Source: Aminobacter carboxidus (GTDB lineage: Bacteria; Pseudomonadota; Alphaproteobacteria; Rhizobiales; Rhizobiaceae). From it: a stretch of 64,000 nt of DNA. The notes under the pieces are model-generated. The model did not search any database, had not been told where the DNA came from, and worked only from the letters and a program-made list of their open reading frames with translations. The DNA lies in contig NZ_JACZEP010000012.1 in NCBI RefSeq assembly GCF_014863355.1, positions 1-64,000 of the forward strand, written 5' to 3'. The position numbers and the translations under genes are program-made. Position 1 is the stretch's first letter, and each line of letters begins with the position of its first letter. This document shows, piece by piece, positions 10,977 through 58,044 of the stretch.

Positions 10977-10981
10977 CGCGG

Positions 10982-18732: not shown

Positions 18733-18847
18733 CTGCCCCTCATCCGCCTGCCGGCACCTTCTCCCCGTGAACGGGGAGAAGGAACAAGCGGCAACGCTGA
18801 CGCCCCCCTCGCCCCCTTTACGGGGAGAGGGTAAGGGTGAGGGGCAG
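18733..18847. repeat. RIME-like two-palindrome intergenic repeat
   Basis: A 115-base element bounded by ctgcccctca and its complement tgaggggcag. It contains two palindromes. The first (18757-18782) has arms ccttctcccc and ggggagaagg around gtgaac; the second has ctcgcccc and ggggagag arms. Size and architecture match RIME1 elements described in Rhizobium. It fills most of the gap between the alpha-2-macroglobulin gene and pbpC, and its right end reaches to five bases before the pbpC ATG. Confidence 0.75.
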
Positions 18848-18851
18848 AGCA

Positions 18852-38871: not shown

Positions 38872-39954
38872 ATGGCTGAGAAAGTCCTTGTCTTGCTGGG
38901 CACCAAGAAAGGTGCCTTCATCGCCGAGAGCGATACGGCGCGGCGGAGCTGGAAGCTGCGCGGGCCATTCTGCGAGACATGGCCGATGAACCATGTCGTC
39001 GCCGACCAGGCGACAGGCACCATCTGGGGCGCCGGCGGCAATGAATGGTTCGGCCCCGCAGTGTGGAAATCGACCGATCTCGGTGAGACCTGGACGCATT
39101 CTTCTGAAGGGCTCGCTTATGCCGAGGGCGAGGAGCCGATCAAGGCGGTGTGGAGCCTCGCCAAGGGCAATGGCAGCCTCTATGCCGGCGTGCAGCCGGC
39201 GGGGCTGTTCCGCAGCGACGATGCCGGCCAGAGCTGGCAGCACATTGATGGCCTGCAGCAGCATCCGTCGCGGCCGCACTGGAATCCCGGCGGCGCCGGC
39301 CTCATCCTGCATTCGCTGGTGCTCGACCCCGATGACCACGACCGCATCTGGATCGGCATCTCGGCGGCCGGCGTGTTCTACACCGGCGATGGCGGTGCCA
39401 CCTGGGAGCCGCGCAACCTCGGCACCCGCGCCGATTTCATGCCCGAGGGCGAGAATTATCCCGAATTCGGCCAATGCGTGCACCATCTGGTCATGGCGCC
39501 CGGCATGCCCGACCGGCTCTACCAACAAAACCATTGCGGCATGTATCGCTCCGACGACGGCGGCAAGCGCTGGGTCAGCATCGAAAAGGGCCTGCCTTCG
39601 ACCTTCGGCTTTCCCGCCGCCGCCCATCCGCGCGACCCCGAAACGCTCTATCTGGTGCCGCTCAACGGCGACAGCGCCGGCCGCTACGTGCCGGACGCCA
39701 AGGCGGCAGTGTGGCGCACACGCGATGCCGGCCGCGAGTGGCAAGCGATGCGCAGCGGCCTGCCGCAGGAAAACGCCTATATCGGCGTGCTGCGCCAGGC
39801 GATGGCAACCGATCGGCTGGAGCCAGCGGGTGTCTATTTCGGCACCAGCTCAGGCGCACTGTTTGCCAGCGCCGACGAAGGCGAAAGCTGGATCAATGTC
39901 GCCCAGCATCTGCCGACAATCCTGTCGGTGGAAACGCTCGTCGTCGACGGCTGA
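38872..39954 (+). CDS. beta-propeller protein with BNR/sialidase-like repeats
   Basis: A 360-residue protein without a signal peptide, so cytoplasmic. It contains repeated Asp-box motifs of the BNR type (STDLGETWTH, SDDAGQSWQH, TGDGGATWEP, SDDGGKRWVS, TRDAGREWQA, SADEGESWIN), about six, which fit a six- to seven-bladed propeller. No sialidase arginine triad is apparent, so enzymatic activity is doubtful. Strong site GGAGG. It is followed after 14 bases by a MoaD/ThiS-like gene and the two are likely one operon. The function of the pair is unknown. Confidence 0.88.
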   Translation: MAEKVLVLLGTKKGAFIAESDTARRSWKLRGPFCETWPMNHVVADQATGTIWGAGGNEWFGPAVWKSTDLGETWTHSSEGLAYAEGEEPIKAVWSLAKGNGSLYAGVQPAGLFRSDDAGQSWQHIDGLQQHPSRPHWNPGGAGLILHSLVLDPDDHDRIWIGISAAGVFYTGDGGATWEPRNLGTRADFMPEGENYPEFGQCVHHLVMAPGMPDRLYQQNHCGMYRSDDGGKRWVSIEKGLPSTFGFPAAAHPRDPETLYLVPLNGDSAGRYVPDAKAAVWRTRDAGREWQAMRSGLPQENAYIGVLRQAMATDRLEPAGVYFGTSSGALFASADEGESWINVAQHLPTILSVETLVVDG

Positions 39955-39968
39955 CGGAACCGAGATCA

Positions 39969-40277
39969 ATGGACAACAGCCCTTCCCCGGAAAGCCGGCA
40001 AGCAACGCTGGCGACCGTGGTGGTGCGTCTGCCCGGAGTGCTGGTCGACCTGTTTCCCGGGGCGCAGCGCCAAGTCGAAGTTCCGGCCACGACTGTCCGC
40101 GACATGGTCGACGAGCTCGACAAACGCTGGCCCGGCATGCGCGATCGCATCTGTGACAGTCGCCCCGCCATCCGCAAGCACATGAACGTCTTCGTCGAAG
40201 GCGAGCGCGCCACGCTGAAGACGAAGCTGCGGCCAGGCGTCGAGGTCTTCGTCCTCACGGCGATCAGCGGCGGCTAG
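39969..40277 (+). CDS. MoaD/ThiS-like ubiquitin-fold protein with C-terminal Gly-Gly
   Basis: A 102-residue beta-grasp protein ending VFVLTAISGG. The last two glycines match the thiocarboxylated or adenylated terminus of sulfur carriers MoaD and ThiS. The fold pattern (VVVRLPGVLVDLF, TVRDMVDELDKRWPGM, HMNVFVEGERA, LRPGVEVFVLTAI) is complete. No MoaE, ThiG or E1-like gene is nearby, so it is probably not a molybdopterin or thiamine protein in this place. It is translated just after the beta-propeller gene and may modify, or be presented to, that protein. Confidence 0.87.
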   Translation: MDNSPSPESRQATLATVVVRLPGVLVDLFPGAQRQVEVPATTVRDMVDELDKRWPGMRDRICDSRPAIRKHMNVFVEGERATLKTKLRPGVEVFVLTAISGG

Positions 40278-41086: not shown

Positions 41087-42091
41087 TCAGATTTCCGGCA
41101 CCGCATCGACCAGTAGCGGGCCGCTGTGCAGGTAGCGCGTCGTCTTGCGCTTGGAAGCGATGTCGGTCCACACGCGACCAACCTGCTCGGCGGTCAATCC
41201 CGCAGCACGGCCAACCTCTTCCGCCGAAATGCCATTGTTCAGCCCATAGAGGCAAAGGTCCATGCGGTCGTAGGGCAAGGAGAAATAAAATTCCTCCTGC
41301 GTCTGCTGCAGCGAATAGGTGTCGGTGGTCGGCGGGCGCCGGCGGATCTCCTCGGGCACGCCAAGATGCGCGGCCAGCTGGTAGACCTGCGACTTGTAGA
41401 GATGGGCGATCGGCTTGACGTCGGCGGCACCATCGCCGTTCTTGACGAAGAAGCCCTGGTCGTATTCGAGCCGGTTCGGCGTGCCGATGACGGCATAGTT
41501 GAGCCGGTCGGCGTGAAAATACTCGACCTGCTTGCGGGTGCGCTGCTTCATGTTGGTGGCGGCAACGATGCCGAGATAGACATGCGGCGGCATGCGCAGC
41601 TTGGTCTGCTTGCCCTCGGGATCCTGCACCACCAGCGACGAGATGTTATAGCCGCCCTCATTGGTCAGCGCGTTGGCGATGACGATCTTGCAAGCCCAAC
41701 CAGCGCCGTATTCGGGCACGAGTTCGCGGATGAAGGCGTCGCGACGCTCGTAGCAGCCCATCGCCTCGAGCGTCGGGCCGATATTCTCAACGACAGCCGA
41801 TATGCCGAAGGTTTCGGCGACGAGCCGTCCAAGACGCAGGCTTTCGGGGTCGGAATCGTCCTCCGGCATGAACAGCGCAAAGACGTTCTTGGCGCCAACT
41901 GCCCGTACAGCCAATGCCGCGCTCACGCTTGAATCGACGCCGCCCGAAAGGCCGAGCACGAGGCCGCGCCGGCGCAGCGTGCCTGTCAGCTGGCTGCGCA
42001 GGGCAGCAGCGATCCTCGCCGCTTCGGCCTCCGGATCGATGGTCAGCGTCGCTGTCCCGAAACTGCCGGTCTGGGCCAGTGGCATGTTCAT
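41087..42091 (-). CDS. nadE: NAD+ synthetase-like ATP pyrophosphatase (ammonia-dependent NadE type)
   Basis: A 334-residue N-type ATP pyrophosphatase with the P-loop SGGVDSS (residues 49-55) and NAD-synthetase segments MKQRTRKQVEYFHADRLNYAVIGTPNR, KNGDGAADVKPIAHLYKSQVYQLAAHLGVPEEI and PTTDTYSLQQTQEEFYF. No glutaminase domain is present, so it would use free ammonia or an ammonia channel partner. It overlaps the AMP-ligase stop by 4 bases and is the last gene of an operon starting with an AsnB-type amidotransferase. It could be a housekeeping enzyme or a paralogue amidating an intermediate in this cluster; context favours the latter. Confidence 0.85.
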   Translation of the reverse strand: MNMPLAQTGSFGTATLTIDPEAEAARIAAALRSQLTGTLRRRGLVLGLSGGVDSSVSAALAVRAVGAKNVFALFMPEDDSDPESLRLGRLVAETFGISAVVENIGPTLEAMGCYERRDAFIRELVPEYGAGWACKIVIANALTNEGGYNISSLVVQDPEGKQTKLRMPPHVYLGIVAATNMKQRTRKQVEYFHADRLNYAVIGTPNRLEYDQGFFVKNGDGAADVKPIAHLYKSQVYQLAAHLGVPEEIRRRPPTTDTYSLQQTQEEFYFSLPYDRMDLCLYGLNNGISAEEVGRAAGLTAEQVGRVWTDIASKRKTTRYLHSGPLLVDAVPEI

Positions 42092-43623
42092 TGCGTCGGC
42101 TCCATGGATTCGGCGGCCAGACGCCGGCTGACCTTGCCGGTGTCGGTCCTGGGCAATTCGGATCGGAACTCGATGATCTTCGGCACCATGAAATCCTCGA
42201 GATTGGCCTGGCAGTGGCGCAGGATTTCACGCTGGCTGAGGTTGGGATCGGACAGCACGATCAGCGCGCCGATGGCATGGCCGAGGATGGGATCGGGCAC
42301 GCCGATCACCACCGCCTCGGCAACGCCGGGACAGGCATGCAGTACCGCCTCGACCTCCTTCGGCGCGACCTTTTCGCCGCGCGTCTTGATGATGTCGTCT
42401 TTGCGCCCGACGAAGTAGAGAAAACCCTCGGCGTCGCGGCGGAACAGGTCGCCGGTGTAGAGCAGCTTTTCCCAAGGGTTGAAGCCCGGGCGCAGCATGC
42501 GGTTGGTCGCCTCCGCGTTCTCCCAGTAGCCCTGCATGACGTGGGGCCCGCGAATGACCAGCTCGCCCGGCGTGTCGGGCGGCACCGGTTGGCCGTAGTC
42601 GTCGACAACGAAGGCCTCGGTGTTGGGGATTGCGATGCCGACTGAGCCGGGACGCCGGTCCAGTTCCGCCGGCGGCAAATAGGTGCAGCGCTTGCACTCG
42701 GTCAGGCCATACATGGAATAGAGGCGGACACCAGTGAACAGCTCGCGCAACCTGGCAATATGCGCCGGCGGCAGGGCGGCCGCGGTATTGGTGACGTAGC
42801 GCAGGCTGGGCAGGAAGCCCGGCTTGATGTCGCGCATCTGCAGGATCAGCGCCGCCATGGTCGGGACCAGCGGGAAACCTGTGACGTTCTCGGTGCGGAT
42901 GACGTCGAAAATCGCCTGCGGGAAGGAGAACGACTTTTCGAGCACCAGTGTCGCACCCATTTTGACCGACATGATCAGTTGGTAGAGGCCATAGTCGAAG
43001 GCCAACGGCAGGACGTTGAGGATGATGTCGTCTGATGTGTTCTCGAGATAGGTGGTGATCGAGCCGGCCGCTGCCTCGATGTTGCGATGGGTCATCATCA
43101 CGCCCTTGGGCCGGCCGGTCGAGCCCGAGGTGTAGATCAGCATGGCAAGGTCGACATCGATGCCGCCATGACGGGGCGGCTCGGCGCTGCCTTGCAGGCA
43201 TTCTTCGAACGAGACGGCACCTTCAGGCGCCTTGCCGCCGGCGGCCGTCGACACGACGACCAACTCGCTGCCATCGCCGGCCTCGGTGACCACAGGCAGC
43301 AGCCGGGCCTGGGTTAGCACGGCGCGCGCGCGGCAGTTGCCGATGATGAAGTCGAGCTTGTCGGCCTTGGTCGACGGATTGATCGGGCTGAAGACGGCAC
43401 CGGCCTTGGCGATGGCGAACACCGACACCGCGGCTTCCCAGCAATTGTCCATGAAGACCAGCACGCGGTCGCCACGGCCGACGCCGAGATCGGCGAGCGC
43501 TGCCGCCAGCCGGTCCGACATGCGGTCGAGCTCGGCATAGGTAAGGCGCACGTCGCGGGCAATCAGCGCGGTCTTGTCGCCCCGCGACCGTGCACTGTCG
43601 CGTAAGAATTGCTCCAGTCGCAT
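42088..43623 (-). CDS. AMP-forming acyl-CoA/acyl-ACP ligase
   Basis: A 511-residue adenylating enzyme of the ANL superfamily. The core motifs are intact: LIYTSGSTGRPKGVMM (residues 163-177), YGLTECKR, YTGDLF, GRKDDIIKTRGEKVAPKEVE and the C-terminal catalytic lysine in PRTDTGKVSRR. It should activate a carboxylic acid and load it on the acyl carrier protein encoded 19 bases upstream. The start has GGGAGGGGG. Related ligases are found in exopolysaccharide loci with AsnB-type amidotransferases. The acyl substrate is not readable. Confidence 0.92.
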   Translation of the reverse strand: MRLEQFLRDSARSRGDKTALIARDVRLTYAELDRMSDRLAAALADLGVGRGDRVLVFMDNCWEAAVSVFAIAKAGAVFSPINPSTKADKLDFIIGNCRARAVLTQARLLPVVTEAGDGSELVVVSTAAGGKAPEGAVSFEECLQGSAEPPRHGGIDVDLAMLIYTSGSTGRPKGVMMTHRNIEAAAGSITTYLENTSDDIILNVLPLAFDYGLYQLIMSVKMGATLVLEKSFSFPQAIFDVIRTENVTGFPLVPTMAALILQMRDIKPGFLPSLRYVTNTAAALPPAHIARLRELFTGVRLYSMYGLTECKRCTYLPPAELDRRPGSVGIAIPNTEAFVVDDYGQPVPPDTPGELVIRGPHVMQGYWENAEATNRMLRPGFNPWEKLLYTGDLFRRDAEGFLYFVGRKDDIIKTRGEKVAPKEVEAVLHACPGVAEAVVIGVPDPILGHAIGALIVLSDPNLSQREILRHCQANLEDFMVPKIIEFRSELPRTDTGKVSRRLAAESMEPTQ

Positions 43624-43642
43624 TGCCCCCTCCCGGACGCCT

Positions 43643-43927
43643 TCAGGCGGCGCCAGCTGCCTGTTTGATCGGCTGCGCCGCCTGCTTGGCCTCGATGAAG
43701 GCGGCGATCCGCACCAAAGAGTCGAGATTGGCCGGAACGATGTCGGAATCCGCCATTTCGAGCCCGAACTGGTCCTCGATATAGGTCACCAGCTCGAGCA
43801 CCCCCGTAGAGTCGATCACCCCGCTTTCGATCAGCGAAACGTCGTCGGCGAGCGCATAGGACGTGTCCCCGAACAGGAAGTTGTCGATGATGAAGGCTTT
43901 GACTGTGTCTTTGACCTGCTGCGTCAT
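43643..43927 (-). CDS. acyl carrier protein
   Basis: A 94-residue phosphopantetheine carrier. The attachment serine is Ser40 in SGVIDSTGVLELV. Helix II (STGVLELVTYIEDQFGLEM) and the overall size fit ACPs. The Ala/Gln-rich C-terminal tail (KQAAQPIKQAAGAA) is longer than usual. ATG at 43927 has AAAGGAG upstream. It stands between the AsnB-type gene (22-base gap) and the AMP ligase, so it is most likely the carrier for that ligase rather than the fatty-acid synthase ACP. Confidence 0.93.
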   Translation of the reverse strand: MTQQVKDTVKAFIIDNFLFGDTSYALADDVSLIESGVIDSTGVLELVTYIEDQFGLEMADSDIVPANLDSLVRIAAFIEAKQAAQPIKQAAGAA

Positions 43928-43949
43928 GCTCTCTCCTTTTGCTCCATCG

Positions 43950-45893
43950 TCAGGCAGCCTCGGTGACATCGGACCTGGATCCGGCGAATGACCGGTTCCA
44001 CAGCTGCGTCGACAGGATGCCGACGAAGGCAGCGTTGTCCCGGAAGCCCGATACCGCTTGCTGCCGGCACTTTTCGGTCAGCTTCCTTACCGTTGAAACG
44101 TCGAAGAATCCTGAATCGGTGATCGCTTCGGAACTCATCGCCTCGCGCAACCACACCGGCTCGCTGGCTCCGACGAAGGATTGCGAATCCGGGGCGCGGT
44201 AGGGCTGCTTTGTCCGGCTGCTGATCGAAGGCGGCAACAAGTCCTTGGTCGCCTCGCGCAAAATGTGCTTTTCGACCAGCCCCTTGAGCTTCAAGCCGGG
44301 CGGCAGCCGGCTGGCAAACTCTACAAGGCGGTGGTCGAGGAACGGGAAGCGCCCCTCGATGCCATGCGCCATCGCCATGCGGTCGCCCTGGCTCGACAGG
44401 ATGTAGCCCGGCAGCAAGAAGCGGCTTTCGAGATATTGCGCCTGGTGCAACGGGTGCCAGCGCGCGAAACGTTCGGGTAGCCGGGACGCGAGCTCGGCGG
44501 CTGCATCGTAGGATGCGAGCTTGGCGCGCAGGTCCGCTGAAAAGAACAGCTTGGCTGCTGCGGTGTTGCGCATACGCGGGCGGTGCGAATAGAGCGGATC
44601 GTCGAGGCTGTCCTTGCCGGCGCCGAAGAAGGCGGCGAGATAGGCCGCAGACTGCTTCTGCAGGCCTGGCAGGTAGGGATAGAGCTTGCGGAACAGATGC
44701 GGCCGGCTGGTCGAACCGGGCTGGCGGTCGCAGAAGCGCCGCACCAGCGTTTCCTTGAAGATGTCGTAGCCGGCGAACACCTCGTCGGCCCCCTCGCCCG
44801 TCAGCACCACCTTGATGCCCTTGGCGCGGACGAGCCCGGAGAGCTGGTAGAGCGGCGCCGGCGCCGTACGGATGACCGGGCGCTCGGTGGCGTTGATCAC
44901 CTCTGGAAAGATCGAAGCGATGTCGCCGGGGCCGACATTTACCGCGCTGTGGTGCGATCCGATGGCGAGCGCCATTTCTTCCTGGAACTCGCTTTCGTCA
45001 TGCTCGGCGCTATCGAAGGTCACCGAAAAAGTGCGCAGCCCGCCGGCGGCCATCGGCGCTGCCAGTGCCGAGACGATGGAGGAATCGAGGCCGCCCGACA
45101 AATAGGAGCCGACGGTCACGTCGGCGCGCATGCGGATGCGGGTCGCATCGGTCAAAAGTGCCCTCAGTTCCTCCGCCGCTTGCACTTCATCGCGCGGCGC
45201 CCGGCCGGCTTCGGCATCGGGGAAATCGAGCTGCCAGTAGGGACGCGTGACGAATCCGCCTTTGTCGGCGATCATGATGTGTGCGGGTTCGAGCTCGTAG
45301 ACGTTCTTGAAGGCGGTGCGCGGCGCGATCGGCGCCCAGATCGTGAATATCTGGTCGAGCGCGATCTCGTCGAGCTCGGCAACGAAACCCGGCACCTTGG
45401 CAAACGCCTTGACCTCGGAGGCAAAATACAAGGTGCCGCGCACGTGCGTGTAGAACAGCGGCCGCACCCCCATCCGGTCGCGGGCCAGGAACATGCGCTG
45501 GCGTGACGCGTCCCAGATGGCAAAGGCGAAGTCGCCATTCATCACGTCGACGCAATCGGGGCCCATCTCCTCATAGAGATGCAGGATAACCTCGGTATCG
45601 CTTCCGGTACGGAACCGGCGGCCACGCGCCTTCAGTTCGTCGCGCAGCTCGACATAGTTGAAAATCTCGCCGTTGAAGGCGATGTGAAGGTCGCCCGAGG
45701 CGCTGGCCATCGGCTGCTGGCCGTCGCCAAGCCCGACGACCGACAGGCGTGCATGGCCAAGGCCGGCCGACGGACAGACGAATACGCCCTGCTCGTCGGG
45801 GCCCCTGTGGGCGATGTTGCCTGTCATGCGCTGCAGCAGCTTTTCAGCCGCCGCTGGCTCGACATCTCCGAGATACCCGACAAATCCACACAT
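43950..45893 (-). CDS. asnB: asparagine-synthetase-type glutamine amidotransferase (AsnB family)
   Basis: A 647-residue class-II amidotransferase. The N-terminal glutaminase domain begins with catalytic Cys2 (MCGFVGYLGD) and has RGPDEQG and NGEIFNY motifs. The synthetase domain carries SGGLDSS (residues 266-272). Its length and the neighbouring ACP and ligase resemble amidotransferases of exopolysaccharide clusters rather than housekeeping AsnB. It would amidate an acyl or sugar acid substrate with glutamine. It is the first gene of the operon; the ribosome-binding site is weak. Confidence 0.9.
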   Translation of the reverse strand: MCGFVGYLGDVEPAAAEKLLQRMTGNIAHRGPDEQGVFVCPSAGLGHARLSVVGLGDGQQPMASASGDLHIAFNGEIFNYVELRDELKARGRRFRTGSDTEVILHLYEEMGPDCVDVMNGDFAFAIWDASRQRMFLARDRMGVRPLFYTHVRGTLYFASEVKAFAKVPGFVAELDEIALDQIFTIWAPIAPRTAFKNVYELEPAHIMIADKGGFVTRPYWQLDFPDAEAGRAPRDEVQAAEELRALLTDATRIRMRADVTVGSYLSGGLDSSIVSALAAPMAAGGLRTFSVTFDSAEHDESEFQEEMALAIGSHHSAVNVGPGDIASIFPEVINATERPVIRTAPAPLYQLSGLVRAKGIKVVLTGEGADEVFAGYDIFKETLVRRFCDRQPGSTSRPHLFRKLYPYLPGLQKQSAAYLAAFFGAGKDSLDDPLYSHRPRMRNTAAAKLFFSADLRAKLASYDAAAELASRLPERFARWHPLHQAQYLESRFLLPGYILSSQGDRMAMAHGIEGRFPFLDHRLVEFASRLPPGLKLKGLVEKHILREATKDLLPPSISSRTKQPYRAPDSQSFVGASEPVWLREAMSSEAITDSGFFDVSTVRKLTEKCRQQAVSGFRDNAAFVGILSTQLWNRSFAGSRSDVTEAA

Positions 45894-46081: not shown

Positions 46082-46177
46082 TTGATGACAATGATGCCTG
46101 ACAAAAGCATTGATCGGTTGACGATCCGGGGCGCTAGGGTTGTCATGGGCAGGGTTTAGGACTTGGCGAGGGCAACA

Positions 46178-46867
46178 ATGCATATCGTTGAGAACAACGG
46201 CGGCAAGTCGGGAATTGCGCTGCACAAATTCATGGACATCGAGCTCGAACTGGGGCCCGACGTGCTCGTGCCGCGCGAGGAAACCGAAATTCTCGGTCGT
46301 GCCGCGATCGGCCTCCTCGGTGGCCGCGATCCTGGCATCAAGGTGATCGACATGTGCTGCGGCTCCGGCAATCTCGGCCTGGCGATCGCCGGCAAGGTGC
46401 CGGGCGCGCGGGTGTGGAGCGCCGACCTGACCGACAGCACTGTGGCCACCGCCCGCCGCAATGCCGACCGCCTCGGCGTGGCGGACCGGGTGACCATCGC
46501 CCAGGGCGACCTGTTCGGCGCGTTCGAAGGGCTCGATCTTGCCGGTTCGATGGACCTGGTCGTCTGCAATCCACCCTACATTTCGTCGGCGCGCCTCGAG
46601 GGCGACCGCAGCGAGTTGCTTGAGTCCGAGCCGAGGGAAGCCTTCGACGGCGGCCCCTATGGCCTCTCCATCCACCAGCGGCTGATCCGCGACGCCGCGG
46701 CGTTCCTGAAGCCGGGCGGATGGCTGGCCTTTGAATTCGGCGAGGGCCAGGACCGCCAGGTCGCCGCGCTGCTTGCCCGCGCCCGCGCTTATGCGCCGGT
46801 CGAATTCGTCGCCGACGCCGCCAAGACACCGCGCGTGGCCATCGCCCGCAAACTCGACCCCGCGTGA
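46178..46867 (+). CDS. PrmC/HemK-like class I SAM-dependent methyltransferase
   Basis: A 229-residue methyltransferase. It has the SAM site DMCCGSGNLGLAIA (residues 58-71), the acidic loop SADLTDS and the NPPY motif (131-134) of enzymes that methylate planar amide or amine nitrogens. VLVPREETEIL (29-39) is the PrmC-specific PRxET motif. It lacks the N-terminal helical domain of true release-factor methyltransferase PrmC. ATG at 46178 has GAGGG upstream. It diverges from the amidotransferase/ACP/ligase operon, so it may N-methylate an amide made by that pathway. This is inference. Confidence 0.88.
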   Translation: MHIVENNGGKSGIALHKFMDIELELGPDVLVPREETEILGRAAIGLLGGRDPGIKVIDMCCGSGNLGLAIAGKVPGARVWSADLTDSTVATARRNADRLGVADRVTIAQGDLFGAFEGLDLAGSMDLVVCNPPYISSARLEGDRSELLESEPREAFDGGPYGLSIHQRLIRDAAAFLKPGGWLAFEFGEGQDRQVAALLARARAYAPVEFVADAAKTPRVAIARKLDPA

Positions 46868-46945: not shown

Positions 46946-48061
46946 ATGCCTGAAATTCGTCCATTGCAGGCCGCCGATCTCGCGGTCGTCGCTGACATGT
47001 TCCAGCGTGTGCTGCGCAAACGGCGCACACCCACGCCCGCGTCCCTGCCCGGCTACCTCCAGCGGCTCTATCTCGACTCCACCGACGGTACGGCCGGATC
47101 GCCGTCGCTTGTCCATGTCGCCGACGATGGCCGCATATCGGGCTTCATCGGTGTCACTTCACTGCCCATGCGTTTCAACGACAAGAAGCTGAACGCCTCG
47201 ATATGCGGCTCGCTGATGGTCGACGAGGACCAGCGCAACGACCTTTCCGGCGCAAGGCTGCTCAAGGCATTTCTTGCTGGCCCGCAGGATCTGTCGTTCA
47301 GCGAGACGGCGAGCGACGTCACCGCCAGCATGTGGACGACGTTGCGCGGCTCGATCCTGCCGGATTACAGCCTCGACTGGATCAAGGTGTTCAGGCCGGT
47401 CGCCTTCGCTGTTGCCGGCGCCAAGCAGCGCATGCCCATCGCACGCCTTGGAGCTCCAGTGGCCCGCGCCGTCGATGCCTGCCTCGGCCTTCGCCGCAGC
47501 GGCGAGTTTTCACGCTGGTTCGGCGCCGGCGACGCGACGGCATCGCAAGGTCGCTACACGGTTTCGGACATCGACGCCGACGGCTTCGCCGGACAGCTCG
47601 ACAAGTTCACTTCGCGCCTGGCGGTTCACCCTGCGTGGGACGAGAAATCGCTGTCTCGCATCATGTCGGATGCCTCGGCCAAGAAGGATTTTGGCGACAT
47701 CTTCCGCTGTACCGTGGCGGCGCGCACCGGCGCGATCATCGGGGCCTTCATCTACTTTGGCCGGCCTGGCGACATCGGCCACGTCCTGCAGGTTCTGGCC
47801 CTGCCCGGCCAGGCTGGTGCAGTGATCGATTGCCTGATCAACCATGCCGCCGGCGCAGGCCTCGCCGGCATCAGAGGCAGAACCCAGCCGGCACTGCTGG
47901 AAGCGATGCTCGGCCGGCGGATCATCTTCATCAACGTCAACTCGACGGTCGTGCATTCCCGTGATCCAGAACTCGTTCGCCAGTTCCAGGCCGGCAACGG
48001 TTTCTTCAACGGGCTCGTTGGCGAGCATTGGAGCCGGATCTTCGGCGACCACTTCGACTGA
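46946..48061 (+). CDS. GNAT-like acyltransferase family protein
   Basis: A 371-residue protein with an N-terminal GNAT-type domain (MPEIRPLQAADLAVVADMFQRVL, then SGFIGVTSLPMRF and SICGSLMVDEDQR), and a second similar half (about 200-371) including ARTGAIIGAFIYFGRPGDIGHVLQVLALPGQ. It looks like a tandem or split GNAT protein. It follows the methyltransferase gene by 78 bases and is probably co-transcribed. A role in acylating a sugar or amine in the neighbouring locus is plausible but unproven. Confidence 0.8.
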   Translation: MPEIRPLQAADLAVVADMFQRVLRKRRTPTPASLPGYLQRLYLDSTDGTAGSPSLVHVADDGRISGFIGVTSLPMRFNDKKLNASICGSLMVDEDQRNDLSGARLLKAFLAGPQDLSFSETASDVTASMWTTLRGSILPDYSLDWIKVFRPVAFAVAGAKQRMPIARLGAPVARAVDACLGLRRSGEFSRWFGAGDATASQGRYTVSDIDADGFAGQLDKFTSRLAVHPAWDEKSLSRIMSDASAKKDFGDIFRCTVAARTGAIIGAFIYFGRPGDIGHVLQVLALPGQAGAVIDCLINHAAGAGLAGIRGRTQPALLEAMLGRRIIFINVNSTVVHSRDPELVRQFQAGNGFFNGLVGEHWSRIFGDHFD

Positions 48062-48082: not shown

Positions 48083-50500
48083 CTAGAACGCGTAGGACAG
48101 GACGTCGCCCGCCTGGCTGCTCATCGGCCCAAAGCGGCAGGCGTTAGGCACCGACTTCTCCGCGCAGTAGCGATTGACGGCACGCGTTGTCGTGCCGCTC
48201 AATACGCCGGTGACCGGTCCCTTGTAGAAACCCGCCTGCTTGAGCTGCTGCTGCGCCAGGTAGATGTAGCCATTCGGATGGGTGGTTCGCATCATCCGAA
48301 CCAGCGACTGGCGCTGCTCGACGGAGAGTTCTGGAATGCGCGCGGCGATCGACTGATAGTCCTGGCGGCCGGAGCCTGCGGCAGCAAACAGCATTTCCTC
48401 GACAAGGCGGTCGCCACGCGACAGCCACGGCGACACGCCGGCGATCAACTGTTCGGCACGTTTCGGATCGGCCTTGATGAAGGTCGTGCGGCCGTAGCGG
48501 CGACCATCGCGATAATAACTGATCAGGTGGCGGGCTGCGGCGATATTGCCGCTGCCAGCAGCCTGTTCGAGCAGCGCCACAGCAGCCTTGGCGTCGCGCT
48601 TGGTGCCCATGCCGTAGAGCATTGCGTCGGCCAGCGGAATAACGGCGTCGTCCAACCCGGTCGCTTGGGCCTGGCGCAGGGCAGCGACCCCATCGGCCGG
48701 CTTGCCGGCATTGCGCAGCAGGCTCTCCGACAGCGCCGACCCCAGAATGAGCAAGCCATAGGGATCGCCTGCCTCTGCCGCCTGGCGATAGTAGCCGGCC
48801 GCCTTCTTGCCGTTACTCTGCAACAGCTTGCCTTCGCGATAAAGGTCACCGAGCCTGATCAATCCTTGCGTCCGTCCGAGCGACGCTGCCTCGGCGTATT
48901 CGCGCATTGCCGCCTGGATGTCAGGCGGGCCGGCGTCGCCCCGGCTGAGCAAGTCGCCCATCACGACATGCGCCTCGGCTTCGCCGCTCGCGGTCGCAGC
49001 CTTCACCATGGCGCGGCCGGCTGCGACATTTTGTGATGTACCTTGGCCGCGCGCCAGCATGGCGCCGGCGCGGACGGCCCCGATGACATCGCCGAGCCCG
49101 GCAGCCTGGCGGTAGTAGTCGAGTGCTTTCGCCAGATCCACGGCAACGGTCATGCCGTCGCTGTAGAAGTCGCCCAGGCGTACCAGCGCCTCGGCCTCGT
49201 TCAGGCTCGCGGCACGCTCATAGGCAGCGAGCGCCGCATCGCCGTCGACATCGCCCGACTCGGGTTCGCGCAAGAGGTCGCCAAGGCTGATCAGTGCCTG
49301 CGGATTGCCGGCATCGGCAAACCGCCGGACGATGTCGCGCCCGCCCGAAACGTCGCGCAAGGTGCCCAACCCATGCGCAGTCATCTCGCCTGCCCGCAAA
49401 GCGGCGCGCGTGTTGCCCGATTCGGCGGCGCGCTTGTAGTAGCCAAGGCCAGTGCCGGCATCGGTCGCCACCGGCGACTGCATCATGCCGCTGTAGACGT
49501 CGCCCAGGAACGTCAGCGCTTCTGCGTCGCCGGCATCGGCAAGGCCCTTGATCAAGGCCAGCCCGCCATCGACGTCCTGGCGGGTGCCCTGGCCACGGAA
49601 CGTCAGTTCGGCGACGCGCAGCTTGCCGAAGGATTGTCCCTGCTCCGCGGCCTTCTGGTAGAATTCGAAGGCTTTGGCATAGTCGGGCTTGCCGGCGCGG
49701 CCGCTGCCGTAGAGATCGGCAAGCCGCAGCAAGGCATCGGCATGCCCGAGGGCGGCGGCCTTGGCATAAGCGGTTTCCGCCTGCTCAGTGTCGGGCGCAC
49801 CGGCATCGGCGTCGTTCATCAGGTCGCCGAGCAATACGAGCGCATGCATGTTGCCGCGATCGGCCAGCGACCGAATCTGCGTCAGCCCCGCCTCCCTATC
49901 CCTGGCGATGCCCTGCCCGCGTGCCAGCATCTCGCCGCTGCGCAGGATGCCGGTTTCGTTGCCGACCGCGGCGGCACGGCGGTAATAGTCGTAGGCGCGC
50001 GGCAGGTCGAGCGGGATCGCCCGGCTGTCGACATGACTGTAGAGACCGCCTAGCGAAGCAAGTGCTGCTCCATCGCCGGCGGACGCCACCTCCTCGATGG
50101 CCGACAGACCCGCGCTGATGTCCCGCTCGGTGCCTTCGCCAAGCACGCGCATTTCGCCGACGCGGAGCCGGGCAGCGGCGCTGCCGGCGTCCGCCGCCTG
50201 ACGGTAGTAGTCGAACGCCTTCGCCGGATCGCGATTGGCATTGCCGGCGTTGCTGTAGAGATCGCCGAGCCGCAGCAGCGCATCGGCGTTGACGGCGCGC
50301 TCAGTGGCGGCTCCGCCGGATATCGCTGGTGGGCCGGCCTCGGGAGCGGTTTCCGCCGACATGGCTGTGCCCGCCGAAACTGCGGCGAACACTGTCATCA
50401 ACACCACCTGGCAGATACGCGACAATTCCCACTCCCTGATAGGGCCAACTCCCAGACCAGCGTCGGGCGAGCGACGCCGGTGCCATTCAGTTTTGAACAT
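48083..50500 (-). CDS. large Sel1-repeat protein with C-terminal peptidoglycan-binding-like domain
   Basis: An 805-residue exported protein. A signal-like hydrophobic stretch (ICQVVLMTVFAAVSAGTAMSA) follows an unusually long 30-residue N-terminal extension. Sel1 helical repeats occupy about residues 70-680. They alternate in two flavours: LGDLY...YYRQAA units and GEM...RGQGT units, with five of the latter (the third reads VAELTFRGQGT). The end (YIYLAQQQLKQAGFYKGPVTGVLSGTTTRAVNRYC, near residue 735) resembles a PG_binding_1 domain. The start overlaps the upstream Sel1 gene by 14 bases. Such proteins (AlgK-like) often scaffold polysaccharide export machinery. Confidence 0.85.
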   Translation of the reverse strand: MFKTEWHRRRSPDAGLGVGPIREWELSRICQVVLMTVFAAVSAGTAMSAETAPEAGPPAISGGAATERAVNADALLRLGDLYSNAGNANRDPAKAFDYYRQAADAGSAAARLRVGEMRVLGEGTERDISAGLSAIEEVASAGDGAALASLGGLYSHVDSRAIPLDLPRAYDYYRRAAAVGNETGILRSGEMLARGQGIARDREAGLTQIRSLADRGNMHALVLLGDLMNDADAGAPDTEQAETAYAKAAALGHADALLRLADLYGSGRAGKPDYAKAFEFYQKAAEQGQSFGKLRVAELTFRGQGTRQDVDGGLALIKGLADAGDAEALTFLGDVYSGMMQSPVATDAGTGLGYYKRAAESGNTRAALRAGEMTAHGLGTLRDVSGGRDIVRRFADAGNPQALISLGDLLREPESGDVDGDAALAAYERAASLNEAEALVRLGDFYSDGMTVAVDLAKALDYYRQAAGLGDVIGAVRAGAMLARGQGTSQNVAAGRAMVKAATASGEAEAHVVMGDLLSRGDAGPPDIQAAMREYAEAASLGRTQGLIRLGDLYREGKLLQSNGKKAAGYYRQAAEAGDPYGLLILGSALSESLLRNAGKPADGVAALRQAQATGLDDAVIPLADAMLYGMGTKRDAKAAVALLEQAAGSGNIAAARHLISYYRDGRRYGRTTFIKADPKRAEQLIAGVSPWLSRGDRLVEEMLFAAAGSGRQDYQSIAARIPELSVEQRQSLVRMMRTTHPNGYIYLAQQQLKQAGFYKGPVTGVLSGTTTRAVNRYCAEKSVPNACRFGPMSSQAGDVLSYAF

Positions 50501-52670
50501 CTCGCGCTGCAGCCGCCGGATTCTCCGCGTCGACCGCTTTCAGATAATATTCGGCTGCCTTGCCACCGTCGGCTGGAACGCCCTTGCCGTCGCGATAGAG
50601 GTCGCCGAGCCTGAGCAAGGCATCGGCGCGCCCCTGGCGGGCGGCATTCTCATAGGCAGCGACTGCGGCATCACCGTCGACCGGTCCTAGCGCACCTGAC
50701 AGGTGAAGATCGCCTAACACGACATAGGCGTAAGGATCGCCGCCGAGCCCGACCTGCTTGACCAGTTCGAGCCCGGCAACGATGTCCTGACGCGTGCCTT
50801 CGCCCCGCGCGGTCATCTCGCCCTGGCGCAGCTTGCCGGTCTCGTCGCCGGCCATACCGGCCCGCCGGTAATAATCGAACGCCTTGGCAGGATCGGCCGG
50901 TATCGTCCCACCGAGCCGATAGATGTCGCCGATCCGCACCAGCGCGTCCAGGCGACCCAGTGCCGCCGCCCTCTCGTAGGCCAGCACGGCCCCCGACGCG
51001 TCGACCTTGCCGGTCGAGCCGTCGCCCGTCAGAGCTGCCAACGACATCAGCGCATCGCTGTTGCCGGCGTCCGCGACCGCCTTGACCATCTGCAGGCCGC
51101 CAGCGACGTCCCTGGGCGTACCTTGGCCGCGTACCATCATCTCGCCGGCATGTACCGCGCCCATCGCGCTGCCAGCTTCGGCGGATTTTCTGTAGTAACC
51201 GAAGGCCGTAGCCGCATTGGCCGGCAACAGGCCGCCAATGCCGCGCTGGTAGAGCCCGCCGAGCAGGTTCATAGCGTCGGCATCGCCCGCGTCGGCGAGC
51301 GAATTCATCTGCGCCAAACCCGCGACGACGTTGCGATCGGTGCCCTGCCCGAGAACCGTCATTTCGCCGACGCGCAACTTGCCGGTCAAGTTGCCGGCCT
51401 GCGAAGCCCTGACATAGTAGGCGAAAGCCTTGGGCGGATCGGAGGCGATCGCGCCGTTGCGGCTATAGAGGTCGCCGAGCCTGACCAGCGCATCGCTGTG
51501 ACCCAGCGAAGCCGCCTTTTCATAGGATGTGACGGCGGCAGCAATATCGACGGGGGCGACAGCCGCATCGCTGAGCAGGTCGCCGAGCGCGATCAGTGCG
51601 AAGGTGTCGCCACGGTCGGCAAGGCCGGTCAGCATCGTCCGCCCGGCCTGATAAGATTGGCTGGTGCCGCGCCCGCGCGCCAGCATCTCGCCGGTGCGCA
51701 GGAGGCCGGTCTCGTCGCCGCTGTCGGCGGCACGGCGGAAATAGCCGAAGGCCTTGCCGAGATCGATGGCGATGACGCCGCCATCGGCGCGGCTGTAGAG
51801 CGAGCCGAGCAGAACCAGCCCGGCAGGGTTGCGCGTGCGCGCCACCACTTCCTCGATCATCGCAAGCCCAGCAGCGACGTCCTGCGTTGCCCCCTGCCCA
51901 ATGGCGATCATCTCGCCGACACGCAGCTTGCCGGCGTCATAGCTCAGCGCTGCGGCCTTGCGGTAAAAGCCGAGCGCCTTTTCCGGCTCCATCGCGACCA
52001 TGCCCTGACCACCGGGGCGGTACAGGTCGCCAAGCAGCACCAGCGCCTCGGGATTGCCGGCATCGGCGAGCGCGCCGATCATGGCGAGGCCCTTGCCGGT
52101 GTCGCGGGCAACGCCTTGGCCGCGCGCCAGCATTTCGCCGACACGCAGCTTGCCATTGGGGTTGCCGGCTTTGGCGGCCTGGTCGTAGAACAGATAGGCA
52201 CGCTTCGGGTCGGCGGCGACGACCCTGCCTTCGCGATACAGGTCGCCAAGCCGCATCAAGGCTTCCGAACTGCCCATGCTCGCCGCCCGCAGGTAAAGCT
52301 CGGATGCCGCGTACGGGTCAGCCGGTGCGTCCTTGACGACGCCGATCAGGTCCGACGGCGAGATGACCGCGTAGATGGCGGCAGGCCGGCCCGGATTGTC
52401 GAGGCCGCGATAATAAGCAAGTGCCGCTTCGGCTGCCGCAGCCGTCGTCTTGCCGTCGCGGTAGAGGTCGCCCAGCGCGATGTACGACGCCGCAAGTGCC
52501 TGCATGAAGCCGTCGCGGGCGTCTACCTTGGATTTGGTGGCCTGGATGGCATGGGGTCCGGCAGGTGACGCCAGGCCCAGCGCCGGCGAGGTTGGAGCCT
52601 GTCCGGCGGGACTGGCTTCAGCTATTCCCGACACAACAACGCTGGCAACCAACAACCAGCCGATACGCAT
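50487..52670 (-). CDS. large Sel1-repeat protein, paralogue of the downstream gene
   Basis: A 727-residue exported protein with signal peptide MRIGWLLVASVVVSGIAEA. Nearly the whole mature part is Sel1 repeats arranged as alternating LGDLY and GEM units, with six GEM...RGxGT units visible (for example VGEMLARGQGVARD and AGEMMVRGQGTPRD). It has no C-terminal peptidoglycan-binding-like domain. ATG at 52670 has GGGAGC upstream. A 14-base palindrome (GCATCCAAGGATGC, 52696-52709) lies just before it. It overlaps its paralogue by 14 bases; the two arose by duplication and are probably one translational unit. Confidence 0.86.
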   Translation of the reverse strand: MRIGWLLVASVVVSGIAEASPAGQAPTSPALGLASPAGPHAIQATKSKVDARDGFMQALAASYIALGDLYRDGKTTAAAAEAALAYYRGLDNPGRPAAIYAVISPSDLIGVVKDAPADPYAASELYLRAASMGSSEALMRLGDLYREGRVVAADPKRAYLFYDQAAKAGNPNGKLRVGEMLARGQGVARDTGKGLAMIGALADAGNPEALVLLGDLYRPGGQGMVAMEPEKALGFYRKAAALSYDAGKLRVGEMIAIGQGATQDVAAGLAMIEEVVARTRNPAGLVLLGSLYSRADGGVIAIDLGKAFGYFRRAADSGDETGLLRTGEMLARGRGTSQSYQAGRTMLTGLADRGDTFALIALGDLLSDAAVAPVDIAAAVTSYEKAASLGHSDALVRLGDLYSRNGAIASDPPKAFAYYVRASQAGNLTGKLRVGEMTVLGQGTDRNVVAGLAQMNSLADAGDADAMNLLGGLYQRGIGGLLPANAATAFGYYRKSAEAGSAMGAVHAGEMMVRGQGTPRDVAGGLQMVKAVADAGNSDALMSLAALTGDGSTGKVDASGAVLAYERAAALGRLDALVRIGDIYRLGGTIPADPAKAFDYYRRAGMAGDETGKLRQGEMTARGEGTRQDIVAGLELVKQVGLGGDPYAYVVLGDLHLSGALGPVDGDAAVAAYENAARQGRADALLRLGDLYRDGKGVPADGGKAAEYYLKAVDAENPAAAARDVQN

Positions 52671-52835
52671 GGGCCCAAGCTCCCAACAGCGGACTGCATC
52701 CAAGGATGCGCCGCAGCTAATATGAAACAGTCATTGCATTTATCCGGCAAGAGCATTCTTCAACTGAGGCGTTCACGAAGCCGTATCCTCGGCAGTACCC
52801 GTCCGCTTCTTCATCCGTAAACTTCGGCGCGCCCA

Positions 52836-54728
52836 TCACTTGATCCATTCGCCCATCCCGATCCCCGGATCATTCGGCGCAAAGACGCTCGCATCGCCTG
52901 TGGCGCGGACCAGACGGAACCGCGCCGAGCCGCGCAGGGCCTTCTCGATCGCGTCGAGCGAGCCCTTCGGCATCACGCCGAGATCGTCGACATAAGCCTT
53001 CTGGCTGCGCGTGATGATGATGAAGGCAGAGCCTGCCGGCACCGCTCGCAACCAGTCCCCCAACTCCGCCGCCGGATCGGCGAGAACCGCTGAAATGGAC
53101 TGCTTGCTCTCGTTGGAGATCGGCACGTAAGTGAAGTTCTCGTAGTTCATGAACTGCTCGGGATAGTTCGGGGCGCCCTCGACAAGGACCGACCCGGCCG
53201 GCGCGTTGCGGTAGAGCCATTCGGACGCCTGCACTTCGGCTTGCGAGAAGGTGTACTGACGGTCCTTGCCATTGTTGGCGAGAACGAAGGCGACCGAGAG
53301 CACGGCACCGAACGCACCGATCCCAAACCGCGCGATGGCGTCGCGCTGGGTGCCGGACCACGGGAAGAAAAGTGCCGCCGCAAAGAAGGCCAAAAACGGC
53401 AGCGCGAACAAAAAGACGCGGAAAACGATCTCGCCGCCATAGGAGGTGGCGACGATCATGAATGCGGGTGCCAGCGTCAGCACGATGGCCGGCCCGTCGC
53501 GATATCCCGCGACAAGCCTGCGCATGCCGCCCAAGACGGCTGCCAAAGCGACCGCACCGGTCAGCGCTCGCGACGCCCAGGACACCACCACCTGCCCCTC
53601 GCTGACGATGGAAGTGTCGACCAGACGCTCGCTGATCTCGTTGGTGTCGCCGAAGCGCTGGACCAGTTCGGGCAGGACCGACGCCATGTAGCCGTCGGCG
53701 TAGAACAGCAGCCATACCACTTCGACGAGGCCGGCAAAGACGACGTAGCCGAGGCTCAACTGGCCGATGACCCACAGACCGCCAAGGCCCATGAGCACGA
53801 CGATCGGCGTCAGCGGATGCGTCGCGGTGATCATCACGATCAACGCCATGGCCGCCAGCGAGGCGGCGACACGCACATATGGCGGGACGGCCAGCTTGAC
53901 CGGCGGCTGGCCGCGCGAGACGAAAGCGAAGTAGCGACCGCAAATCCTGTCAAGGCCGCGCCCCTTGGGGTCGGCCCAGGGGTGCGAGATACTGAGCGGG
54001 CCGAGGCAAAGCGCGATCAGCATGAGGTAAAACAGGAAGGCAACGCCCTGCGGCGAAAAGTAATCCTGGCCGATCCAGTTGCCGATGACGAACAGCCACA
54101 CCCCGCCCCAGACCAACCGGGGATCAGCGGTGAAGCGGCGATAGATCTGCGGCAGCACCAGCACATAGAGAAGGTTGATCGCAGGCGGCGAAAAGCGTGC
54201 GATATCAGCCAGCTGGATCGGTTTGATGTCGAACAGGTTGGCGATCGCAGCGCTGACGACGAACAGGCCGGGCCAATTGGCGTAGGCGGCAAGGAACGGC
54301 GCCTTGGGGTCGATCTGGCCGTGCCGCTGGACATAATCGACGACACCGACATGCTTCCAGGCCCAAGCGTAACGCAATTCGTCGTAGACGATCGCCGGCG
54401 TGCCGTGCAGCAAAAGCACCAGCATGACGATCATCAGCAGCGGCATGCGGGTCTCGCAGACCCCGCGCTTCAGGCTGAAGGCAAAACCGATGCCGACGGC
54501 GGCATAGGCCACCCAGACGATGCCGGGCAGGACCGAAATCAGACCGTAGTCATCGACGCCGGCTGGATCGGTGATGAAAAGGACGACCAGCCACAGGGCA
54601 AAGGCCAGGCAAAGGCAGGTCAGCGAAAGGCCGGACGACACTGTCGAGGCGCGGCCGGCTTTGGCCAAAGGCGGCAACCGCAGCGCCGGCGACAACGCAA
54701 GACTGGCTTCCCTCGTCATCACATTCAT
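52836..54728 (-). CDS. multi-spanning membrane protein, probable polysaccharide polymerase or GT-C glycosyltransferase
   Basis: A 630-residue protein with about 12 membrane segments (first: TCLCLAFALWLVVLFIT near residue 35) and a C-terminal soluble domain of about 110 residues (GSVLVEGAPNYPEQFMNYENF... to MGEWIK), probably periplasmic. The layout fits a GT-C glycosyltransferase or Wzy-type polymerase of an exopolysaccharide pathway; no single diagnostic motif decides this. ATG at 54728 has GGAGG and overlaps the flippase-kinase stop by 4 bases (ATGA). It is therefore coupled to that gene. Confidence 0.82.
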   Translation of the reverse strand: MNVMTREASLALSPALRLPPLAKAGRASTVSSGLSLTCLCLAFALWLVVLFITDPAGVDDYGLISVLPGIVWVAYAAVGIGFAFSLKRGVCETRMPLLMIVMLVLLLHGTPAIVYDELRYAWAWKHVGVVDYVQRHGQIDPKAPFLAAYANWPGLFVVSAAIANLFDIKPIQLADIARFSPPAINLLYVLVLPQIYRRFTADPRLVWGGVWLFVIGNWIGQDYFSPQGVAFLFYLMLIALCLGPLSISHPWADPKGRGLDRICGRYFAFVSRGQPPVKLAVPPYVRVAASLAAMALIVMITATHPLTPIVVLMGLGGLWVIGQLSLGYVVFAGLVEVVWLLFYADGYMASVLPELVQRFGDTNEISERLVDTSIVSEGQVVVSWASRALTGAVALAAVLGGMRRLVAGYRDGPAIVLTLAPAFMIVATSYGGEIVFRVFLFALPFLAFFAAALFFPWSGTQRDAIARFGIGAFGAVLSVAFVLANNGKDRQYTFSQAEVQASEWLYRNAPAGSVLVEGAPNYPEQFMNYENFTYVPISNESKQSISAVLADPAAELGDWLRAVPAGSAFIIITRSQKAYVDDLGVMPKGSLDAIEKALRGSARFRLVRATGDASVFAPNDPGIGMGEWIK

Positions 54729-57211: not shown

Positions 57212-58044
57212 GGCCCGGCACGCCGCCAGACACGAACATAGTCGATCAGGAAATCGGCCGGGAATTTAGTCTTGGCGTCAGGCGAACCGGGCCAGTTGCC
57301 GCCGACGGCGAGGTTGATGAGCAGGTACATCGGTTCCTGCGAGATGCCCTCGGGCTTGGTGTAGCGCCACATCTCCTTGCCATCGAGATACCAGATGACG
57401 GCATCCTTGCTCCACTCCAGGCCATAGGCATGCCAGTCGGCGGAAAGGTCGGCCGTCTTGGCGTTCTTGCCTTCGCTCTTCCAGTCCTTCTTCTTGTCGA
57501 GATAGTGCAGGTGCATCTCGTAGACGTCGGGCGCATGGCCCAGCACTTCAAGGATGTCGATTTCCGGACGCGGCTCCTGCGTCGACGGCAACAGCCAGAT
57601 CGCCGGCCACAGCCCCTTGCCCTTCGGGATCTTGGCGCGGATTTCGAAATAGCCGTATCTGGTGGCGAAACGGTCTGCTTTGGCGCGCTCGAGATAATCG
57701 CGACCTGTCGTCACCATGCCAGACGTGTAGTCGAAGGTTCGCCCTTCATGGCCGGTCACCGTCTCCGGCCGCGCCGTCAGGCGCAAGACGCCATCGGCAA
57801 CGCTGACGTTGTCGGGCATGTACCATTGCAGTTCCTTGTTGGCGAGATTGGTACAGCCGCCCTTGTCCCACCAGTAGCAGCGGGTCCACTTGCTGCGGTC
57901 GAGCTTGGGCTGGTCGAACTCTTCGGTGAATATCCGTTCCCATTGCCCCTTGATCAGGGGAGGCTCCATACCTTGAGCCAAGGCGCTCGCATGCCCGAAC
58001 CACCAGGCGCCCGCCAGCGCCGCACCCCACAACCCCTTACCCAT
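57208..58044 (-). CDS. GH16 family glycosyl hydrolase (ExoK/ExsH-like endo-glycanase)
   Basis: A 278-residue secreted glycanase. After a signal peptide (WGAALAGAWWFGHASALAQ) the GH16 fold is clear: EEFDQPKLDRSKW, YGYFEIRAKIP, GLWPAIWLLP, and the catalytic EIDILE motif (Glu161, Asp163, Glu166). FQxLGH-type context (EVLGHAPDVYEMHLHY) follows. The family depolymerises beta-1,3/1,4 glucans or succinoglycan and, in exopolysaccharide loci, sets chain length. ATG at 58044 is chosen over TTG 58056. It overlaps the flippase-kinase gene by 4 bases, so the three genes 58044-52836 are coupled. Confidence 0.92.
   Translation of the reverse strand: MGKGLWGAALAGAWWFGHASALAQGMEPPLIKGQWERIFTEEFDQPKLDRSKWTRCYWWDKGGCTNLANKELQWYMPDNVSVADGVLRLTARPETVTGHEGRTFDYTSGMVTTGRDYLERAKADRFATRYGYFEIRAKIPKGKGLWPAIWLLPSTQEPRPEIDILEVLGHAPDVYEMHLHYLDKKKDWKSEGKNAKTADLSADWHAYGLEWSKDAVIWYLDGKEMWRYTKPEGISQEPMYLLINLAVGGNWPGSPDAKTKFPADFLIDYVRVWRRAGP

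Follow-up and report, generated by a model that had tools for sequence, protein, structure and literature searches.

A conserved gene set with a NadE-like enzyme in Aminobacter carboxidus: a candidate carrier-protein module for exopolysaccharide decoration

A 64,000-nt stretch of the Aminobacter carboxidus genome (positions 1-64,000 of contig NZ_JACZEP010000012.1, that is, contig C4 of the 6.29 Mb genome G000; hereafter the window) carries four tightly packed minus-strand genes, which encode an AsnB-like glutamine amidotransferase, a small acyl or aminoacyl carrier protein (ACP), an AMP-forming ligase and a NadE-like ATP pyrophosphatase. The four genes are one unit of inheritance, and the NadE-like protein is not the cell's NAD supply; it is an extra, altered paralogue. 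On balance we lean towards the view that they form the heart of a module, organised around the carrier protein, which makes a small amide-bearing group and places it on an exopolysaccharide.

Layout and conservation of the gene set

The amidotransferase gene (43950-45893, minus strand) encodes 647 residues with a Cys2 glutaminase site and the synthetase motif SGGLDSS at position 266. The ACP gene (43643-43927, minus strand; 94 residues) specifies the pantetheine site Ser40 within DSTG, and the ligase gene (42088-43623, minus strand; 511 residues) specifies a PF00501 protein with the motifs YTSGSTGRPKG and TDTGK. The NadE-like gene (41087-42091, minus strand; 334 residues) belongs to family NF002048/PRK00876 and retains SGGVDSS at position 49. 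The first-pass annotation of this DNA had described four minus-strand genes with gaps of 22 and 19 bases followed by a 4-base overlap, all with intact catalytic motifs, and every one of these details was reproduced from the window sequence. The longest ACP reading frame starts further upstream, at 43969; we took the ATG at 43927, preceded by AAAGGAGAGAGC, as the start because it matches a ribosome-binding site and places the serine at position 40.

The operon as first drawn contained these four genes, which stand; it did not extend to a pair of conserved plus-strand neighbours, a PrmC/HemK-like methyltransferase (46163-46867, starting at TTG 46163 or, equally likely, at ATG 46178) and a GNAT-like protein (46946-48061, 371 residues). 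A gap of 269 bases separates this pair from the minus-strand operon. A promoter scan gave one match versus 1.0 in shuffled sequences, that is, no excess, and a terminator scan gave five versus 3.6, a slight excess at most.

Conservation was surveyed over 73 loci chosen by their NadE-like gene, including 39 additional genome loci and six plasmid records. A gene was scored as present when a tblastn piece of at least 34 bits with the window protein lay within the fetched stretch. One locus without a NadE-like gene of the NF002048 type (L077, genome G042) served as a contrast and was excluded from the 73. The loci are mostly from Rhizobiales, and they comprise 72 distinct NadE-like proteins, which cluster into 56 groups when the identity threshold is 95% and into 45 when it is 90%; because many are close kin, counts out of 73 are not counts of independent events. 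The first-pass annotation had suggested searching for co-occurrence of the four families, and it is indeed conserved: the NadE-like gene has an ACP gene and a ligase gene nearby in 73/73 loci and an AsnB gene in 71/73. The accessory genes are less constant (GNAT-like in 57/73, PrmC-like in 43/73). On the named genome contigs all 28 NadE-like relatives are flanked by AsnB, ACP and ligase genes, with AsnB running off the contig end at L016.

The order of the genes varies more than their company. Four orders of the full set were seen: AsnB-ACP-ligase-NadE at most loci, NadE-AsnB-ligase-ACP at five, AsnB-ligase-ACP-NadE at one and ACP-ligase-AsnB-NadE at one (Azospirillum), and at L069 AsnB lies about 2.4 kb from the rest. 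That the members stay together through rearrangement marks the set as a functional unit.

The distribution across genomes provides the strongest test. The NadE-like family scored over its cut-off in 28 of 151 genomes of the window's family. Searches with AsnB (E 1e-100) and with the ligase each returned 29 genomes, namely the same 28 (at 56-100% and 52-100% identity, respectively) plus one more, G041 at 39% for AsnB and G069 at 40% for the ligase. At the orthologue level, the presence and absence of the three genes agree in 151/151 genomes, and none of the remaining 123 has any of them. For independent genomes, identical sets of 28 would arise with a chance of 4e-31, although real genomes do not meet that assumption. 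A chance neighbourhood of four genes is ruled out by this identical distribution together with the conservation over 73 loci. Mirror-tree correlations of 0.80-0.95 mostly reflect common descent and were not used as evidence. The two other genomes sampled from the window's genus differ, the set being present in the first and missing from the second; it is therefore gained or lost as a block. Farther afield, the NadE-like family was positive in 15 of 398 genomes of a phylum sample, spread over seven families including the window's own, and in one of 14 control genomes, that of the archaeon Methanosarcina acetivorans, whose protein is over the NF002048 cut-off.

The two loci scored without AsnB (L106 and L107, one genus) come from genomes that carry a 69-70% identical AsnB on another contig, where it sits directly upstream of genes for Wzx, a GNAT paralogue, Wzz, Wzy, an HfsH-like deacetylase and a glycosyltransferase. 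An AsnB that keeps company with polymer genes, apart from ACP, ligase and NadE-like genes, is a point in favour of a different arrangement, in which AsnB and the NadE-like enzyme turn uronic acids within the repeat unit into uronamides and ligase, ACP and GNAT-like protein attach an acyl group independently of this. In other polysaccharides, AsnB-like enzymes presumably form uronamides. Strict co-inheritance in 28/28 genomes is easier to understand with one pathway, and the ACP and ligase near the NadE-like gene at every locus also speak against such a division of labour, which we regard as unlikely, if the foremost of the alternatives. A single carrier-protein module working on an exopolysaccharide is the reading we prefer.

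Duplicates of the set or its parts were met occasionally. Genome G059 has an intact copy on contig C4 and a second, decaying copy on another contig (L131:3839-9704), in which the matches to AsnB and to the NadE-like gene are both broken into separate pieces; the GNAT-like and ligase matches of both copies score equally, which points to a recent duplication or to an effect of assembly. A second ligase, 59% identical, occurs in two set-carrying genomes (G028:C22:376807-378321, which is L132:9793-11514, and G127:C1:295525-297039), and that of G028 stands without the other three genes. On large plasmids of S. meliloti (L083:17356-19279) and Rhizobium sp. ACO-34A (L087:7924-9767) the set lies near minCDE. 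In S. meliloti (laboratory strains 1021 or 2011) it maps to pSymB, at about 1450.6 kb.

An altered NadE paralogue

The NadE-like protein, whose closest named relatives are from Aminobacter (93-98% identity), matches NF002048 with 530 bits (cut-off 313) and passes both TIGR00552 (146.9 versus 63.65) and PF02540 (167.6 versus 21). It falls below the cut-off of the equivalog PRK13980 (171 versus 255), and profile searches found no glutaminase domain in it. With NH3-dependent NAD synthetase (NadE) it shares the family profile, the PP-loop and two alignable core blocks, at about 19-112 and 170-314. The region from 110 to 179 has 68 residues where the solved NadE 2e18 has 14, about 54 more, and this extra segment contains W132, K135 and L153, invariant in 37/37 proteins. 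Val216 is likewise invariant (37/37), whereas the NadE sequences compared have Thr there. In human and M. tuberculosis NAD synthetases the nicotinate ring is held by Tyr525 and Trp490, respectively (PMC6946656). A motif alignment indicates that the NadE-like protein keeps an aromatic residue at the nicotinate position and, where the ammonia path ends, an Asp. With these two retained, the acyl-adenylate and ammonia chemistry is likely to be kept and the acid to have changed.

Besides this protein, the window genome encodes a glutamine-dependent NadE of 563 residues as well as a third homologue. Another NadE-domain gene is present in 28/28 set-carrying genomes, in 25 of them a glutamine-dependent NadE over the cut-off and in three an NAD_synthase-domain protein (frame of 699-724 residues). 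The NadE-like gene is never the only NadE-domain gene in these genomes, which rules it out as the sole NAD synthetase, a role whose proof would have told against the first-pass view of the operon. A weaker version, with the gene as a plain second NAD synthetase in a loose grouping of genes, draws on the name NAD(+) synthase given by NCBIfam and on the score over TIGR00552. The other NadE-domain genes, the constant nearness of ACP and ligase (73/73) and the extra residues with their invariant positions all stand against it, and we give it very little credence. As the neighbourhood points to another role, the NAD(+) synthase label, which annotated plasmid records carry as well, is probably misleading in many genomes, including that of the model symbiont Sinorhizobium meliloti.

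Amidotransferase, ligase and carrier protein

The AsnB-like protein passes TIGR01536 (503.7 bits versus 267.1) and scores below the AsnB equivalog PRK09431 (337.1 versus 499), so by that model it is not the housekeeping enzyme. The motifs of its synthetase half are retained, and this half shows good conservation across 72 proteins. This bears on the possibility that AsnB is simply the glutaminase for the NadE-like enzyme and that one amide is made, an idea suggested by the missing glutaminase domain of the latter. A conserved synthetase half argues otherwise, as do the two genomes in which AsnB and the NadE-like gene are on different contigs, where a complex is still possible. Further, NadE proteins of this length normally use free ammonia (PMC6946656). 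We hold the glutaminase arrangement to be quite improbable and prefer a module in which AsnB would make an amide of its own.

The ligase matches PF00501 with 332 bits and TIGR01733 with 295.8, below the cut-off of 317.4, and its best matches among solved structures are adenylation domains of nonribosomal peptide synthetases (NRPSs). The ACP (searched with three extra N-terminal residues) scores 22.8 bits on PF00550, whose cut-off is 20.8. Among solved structures it comes closest to peptidyl carrier proteins; D-alanyl carrier proteins rank lower. Ser40 and its DSTG motif are strongly conserved in the 71 of 74 proteins that were aligned, the other three being too short after extension. An amino acid is a possible ligase substrate, and a second carboxylate on the substrate is also possible. 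No gene for the biosynthesis of a special acid was seen to recur in the open reading frame lists of the neighbours, which is an impression and not a count; this suggests that the acid is a common metabolite.

Release from the carrier and a methyltransferase

A carrier-bound thioester requires a transferase or a thioesterase for its release, and most loci have either a GNAT-like protein or a thioesterase. The GNAT-like protein is probably the transferase of the ACP-bound group, judging from family resemblance and from its distribution: 14 of 30 family members match Acetyltransf_9 (PF13527) weakly (best E 0.00055), and 26 of the 28 set-carrying genomes have a match to it of at least 288 bits. 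Four genomes without the set gave paralogue-like GNAT matches of 148-256 bits. In the two set-carrying genomes without a GNAT-like gene (G054 and G106), a thioesterase gene directly follows the NadE-like gene. Thioesterase matches with two query proteins were found at eight loci (L071-L074, L099, L100, L109 and L112), and none of the eight has the GNAT-like gene within its stretch. At L074 the thioesterase forms the last part of an adenylation-carrier-thioesterase protein (L074:10459-13251), encoded immediately next to the NadE-like gene or in slight overlap with it; identities of 63-64% indicate that such a protein also adjoins the NadE-like gene at L109 and L112. Eight more loci have no GNAT-like gene within the stretch. 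Among these, L102-L104 have it 1-8 kb further out, and L084 has its own GNAT-family gene right after nadE, with a partial, profile-level match to the GNAT-like family of the window.

The PrmC-like gene was considered as the housekeeping release-factor methyltransferase and rejected. Its product has the catalytic domain of PrmC/HemK with NPPY, yet unlike PrmC it does not cover the start of the profile (about the first 50 positions are missing; the match to TIGR03534 covers 53-252), it scores 182.1 against a cut-off of 199.1, and a full-length PrmC is encoded on contig C18 of the window genome. As it is present in 43/73 loci, one of them with a weak match (L081, 30%), we regard it as accessory. 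PrmC methylates the side-chain amide of glutamine. Since PrmC targets an amide and the copy adjoins an amide-making set, N-methylation of a new carboxamide would fit it.

Polysaccharide genes near the set

The tie to exopolysaccharide loci on which the first-pass annotation drew was seen in several lineages. A Sinorhizobium-type Wzx gene, like the one downstream of the separate AsnB in the L106 and L107 genomes, lies within the stretch around the complete set at 22/73 loci, including loci of Rhizobium, Sinorhizobium and Chelativorans, and other polysaccharide genes flank the set in additional lineages whose loci were read individually. The distant copy at L068 follows XrtA-type chain-length and deacetylase genes, both over their cut-offs.

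In the window itself the candidates lie to the right of the set. A membrane protein with many hydrophobic stretches and no Pfam match (52836-54827, minus strand) is possibly a polymerase, as judged by eye. The next gene (54725-57211, minus strand) encodes a membrane protein that looks by eye like a Wzx-type flippase, fused to a kinase-like (APH) C-terminus (PF01636, residues 537-726); this fusion of flippase-like and phosphotransferase-like parts is an unusual architecture. There follow a glycoside hydrolase of family 16 (57208-58056, minus strand; PF00722), a GNAT of the FemAB/Acetyltransf_6 type (58514-59641, plus strand; PF13480), to which no kinship of the GNAT-like protein was found, and two family 2 glycosyltransferases (61872-62744 and 62755-63699, both plus strand; PF00535 with 99.3 and 88 bits). 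Just past the window lies a gene for a 727-residue fusion of a family 2 glycosyltransferase and a polysaccharide deacetylase (G000:C4 63600-65783, which is L120:3601-5784). The Sinorhizobium-type Wzx cluster was rejected as the polymer system of the window genome, which gave no match to it at E 1e-20. That cluster matched in one of 14 genomes, most of them picked because the cluster had not been seen beside their set; two, G010 and G011, are without the set.

Two large tandem Sel1-repeat proteins (48083-52703, minus strand) adjoin the set in 4/73 loci, all from Aminobacter, and the genes immediately left of the operon (SH3, BNR, DRL) are kept near it in 2/73 loci, both from Aminobacter. At 38872-40277 (plus strand) a gene for a BNR/Sortilin-like protein is followed by a short frame that looks, by eye, like the MoaD/ThiS type. 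The part of the window left of the set holds transporters and unrelated enzymes. It also contains a TamB-like protein with an Omp85/POTRA protein, resembling a TamA-TamB pair (6807-12919, minus strand), and a penicillin-binding protein (18837-20948).

Proposed pathway and its weighing

The steps of the proposed pathway are drawn from enzyme families. The ligase would adenylate a small acid that is a common metabolite, an amino acid or a dicarboxylic acid being the likeliest, and load it onto the Ser40-pantetheine of the ACP. AsnB, using ammonia derived from glutamine, would convert a free carboxylate to a carboxamide. The NadE-like enzyme, with the same acyl-adenylate chemistry and ammonia, might form a second amide, either on the carrier-bound group itself or on the receiving sugar. 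Transfer from the carrier to an amino sugar would then fall to the GNAT-like protein or, in some lineages, to a thioesterase, and the PrmC-like protein, where present, could N-methylate the new carboxamide. The first-pass reading, in which an acid is adenylated, loaded and amidated with the NadE-like enzyme as a second ATP-pyrophosphatase, is borne out as to co-occurrence, the NAD point and the exopolysaccharide tie. It missed the GNAT-like, thioesterase and PrmC-like partners, and because of these the likely end of the pathway changes to transfer to a sugar and, in some lineages, N-methylation of the amide.

A more specific proposal is put forward tentatively: a NadE-family enzyme may have been recruited as the dedicated partner of an ACP and ligase, amidating a carrier- or glycan-bound carboxylate, and with AsnB, a GNAT-like protein or thioesterase and, in some lineages, a PrmC-like protein it may constitute an undescribed route to carboxamide or N-methylcarboxamide substituents of exopolysaccharides. 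If this is true, a module adding an amide group to exopolysaccharide has been named and becomes testable in a tractable strain.

Several observations weigh against a carrier-protein module acting on exopolysaccharide. The GNAT-like protein is below the PF13527 cut-off (15.8 versus 25), and its profile found no relative among solved structures, the single match being at chance level (E 0.75). At four distant loci (L067-L070) neither a GNAT-like nor a thioesterase match was found. In NRPS adenylation domains the Asp of motif A4 contacts the substrate amino group; of the 74 ligases, 49 have D at this position, 14 have G and 5 have T, which leaves an amino-acid substrate insecure, and the A4 region of the adenylation-carrier-thioesterase protein of L074 is without the usual FD motif of amino-acid domains. 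Arg312, invariant in 74/74 ligases, is common to two ligases from loci without a NadE-like gene (L128, where an XrtA ligase is over its cut-off, and L129). The polysaccharide neighbours were read locus by locus in several lineages rather than tallied over the 73, and those listed for L087 include no glycosyltransferase or flippase. The polysaccharide link, which probably holds, rests on gene neighbourhoods, and a gene neighbourhood is not a function. Two marks were dropped on these grounds, namely an amino-acid substrate read securely from the ligase motif, given the variable A4 Asp, and Arg312 as a mark of the module, given its presence at L128 and L129.

The neighbours of L087 also favour another product, a small free metabolite or an aminolipid, with the polysaccharide genes as mere neighbours. 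So do the replacement of the GNAT-like gene by a thioesterase in some lineages and the best NCBIfam match of the ACP, an ornithine-lipid ACP, although this is below the cut-off. Set against these are the polysaccharide genes that adjoin the set in several families and the two genomes in which AsnB alone has remained with the polymer cluster. We judge such a product improbable, a little more so than uronamide formation, and retain the exopolysaccharide-directed module as the preferred reading.

Comparison with known systems

The nearest system in kind is the XrtA/PEP-CTERM (EpsH-type) exopolysaccharide set, with its ligase (TIGR03098), amidotransferase (TIGR03108) and decarboxylase (TIGR03099). 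The likeness lies in the family matches, as the XrtA models are the best or near-best for the window ligase and AsnB, and in the copy at L068 that adjoins XrtA chain-length and deacetylase genes. Both window proteins are, however, well below the cut-offs: the ligase, whose best NCBIfam match this is, scores 475.5 on TIGR03098 against 592.35, compared with 733.1 for the XrtA-type ligase at L128, and AsnB scores 433.7 on TIGR03108 against 816.9, with four distant copies at 358.9-441.0. The TIGR03099 decarboxylase was absent from the locus in 20/20 genomes searched; one of the 20 has it over the cut-off, on another contig, and weaker matches in others are also away from the set. Instead, the module has its NadE-like and GNAT-like proteins. 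With ligase and AsnB failing the models and the decarboxylase missing from the locus, filing the module under the XrtA set was rejected.

A stand-alone ligase with a small carrier, and AsnB-like amidation of a small acid, also recall DltA-DltC, butirosin BtrI/BtrJ and tetracycline OxyD-type steps. To our knowledge none of these systems combines AsnB with a NadE-like enzyme or forms such a polysaccharide module. The pathway described in PMC11340318 is a different one. No description of the gene set was recognised in the open-licence literature, a weak absence given that subscription papers mostly fall outside it.

For the decoration of glycans by a ligase, carrier and amidotransferase we know of no worked-out mechanism. 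If the proposed pathway is correct, the module would join the XrtA loci as another example in which an adenylating ligase, a carrier and an amidotransferase serve this purpose. Collectively, the comparison suggests a carrier-protein-based decoration of exopolysaccharide in which a NadE-like enzyme is the constant partner.

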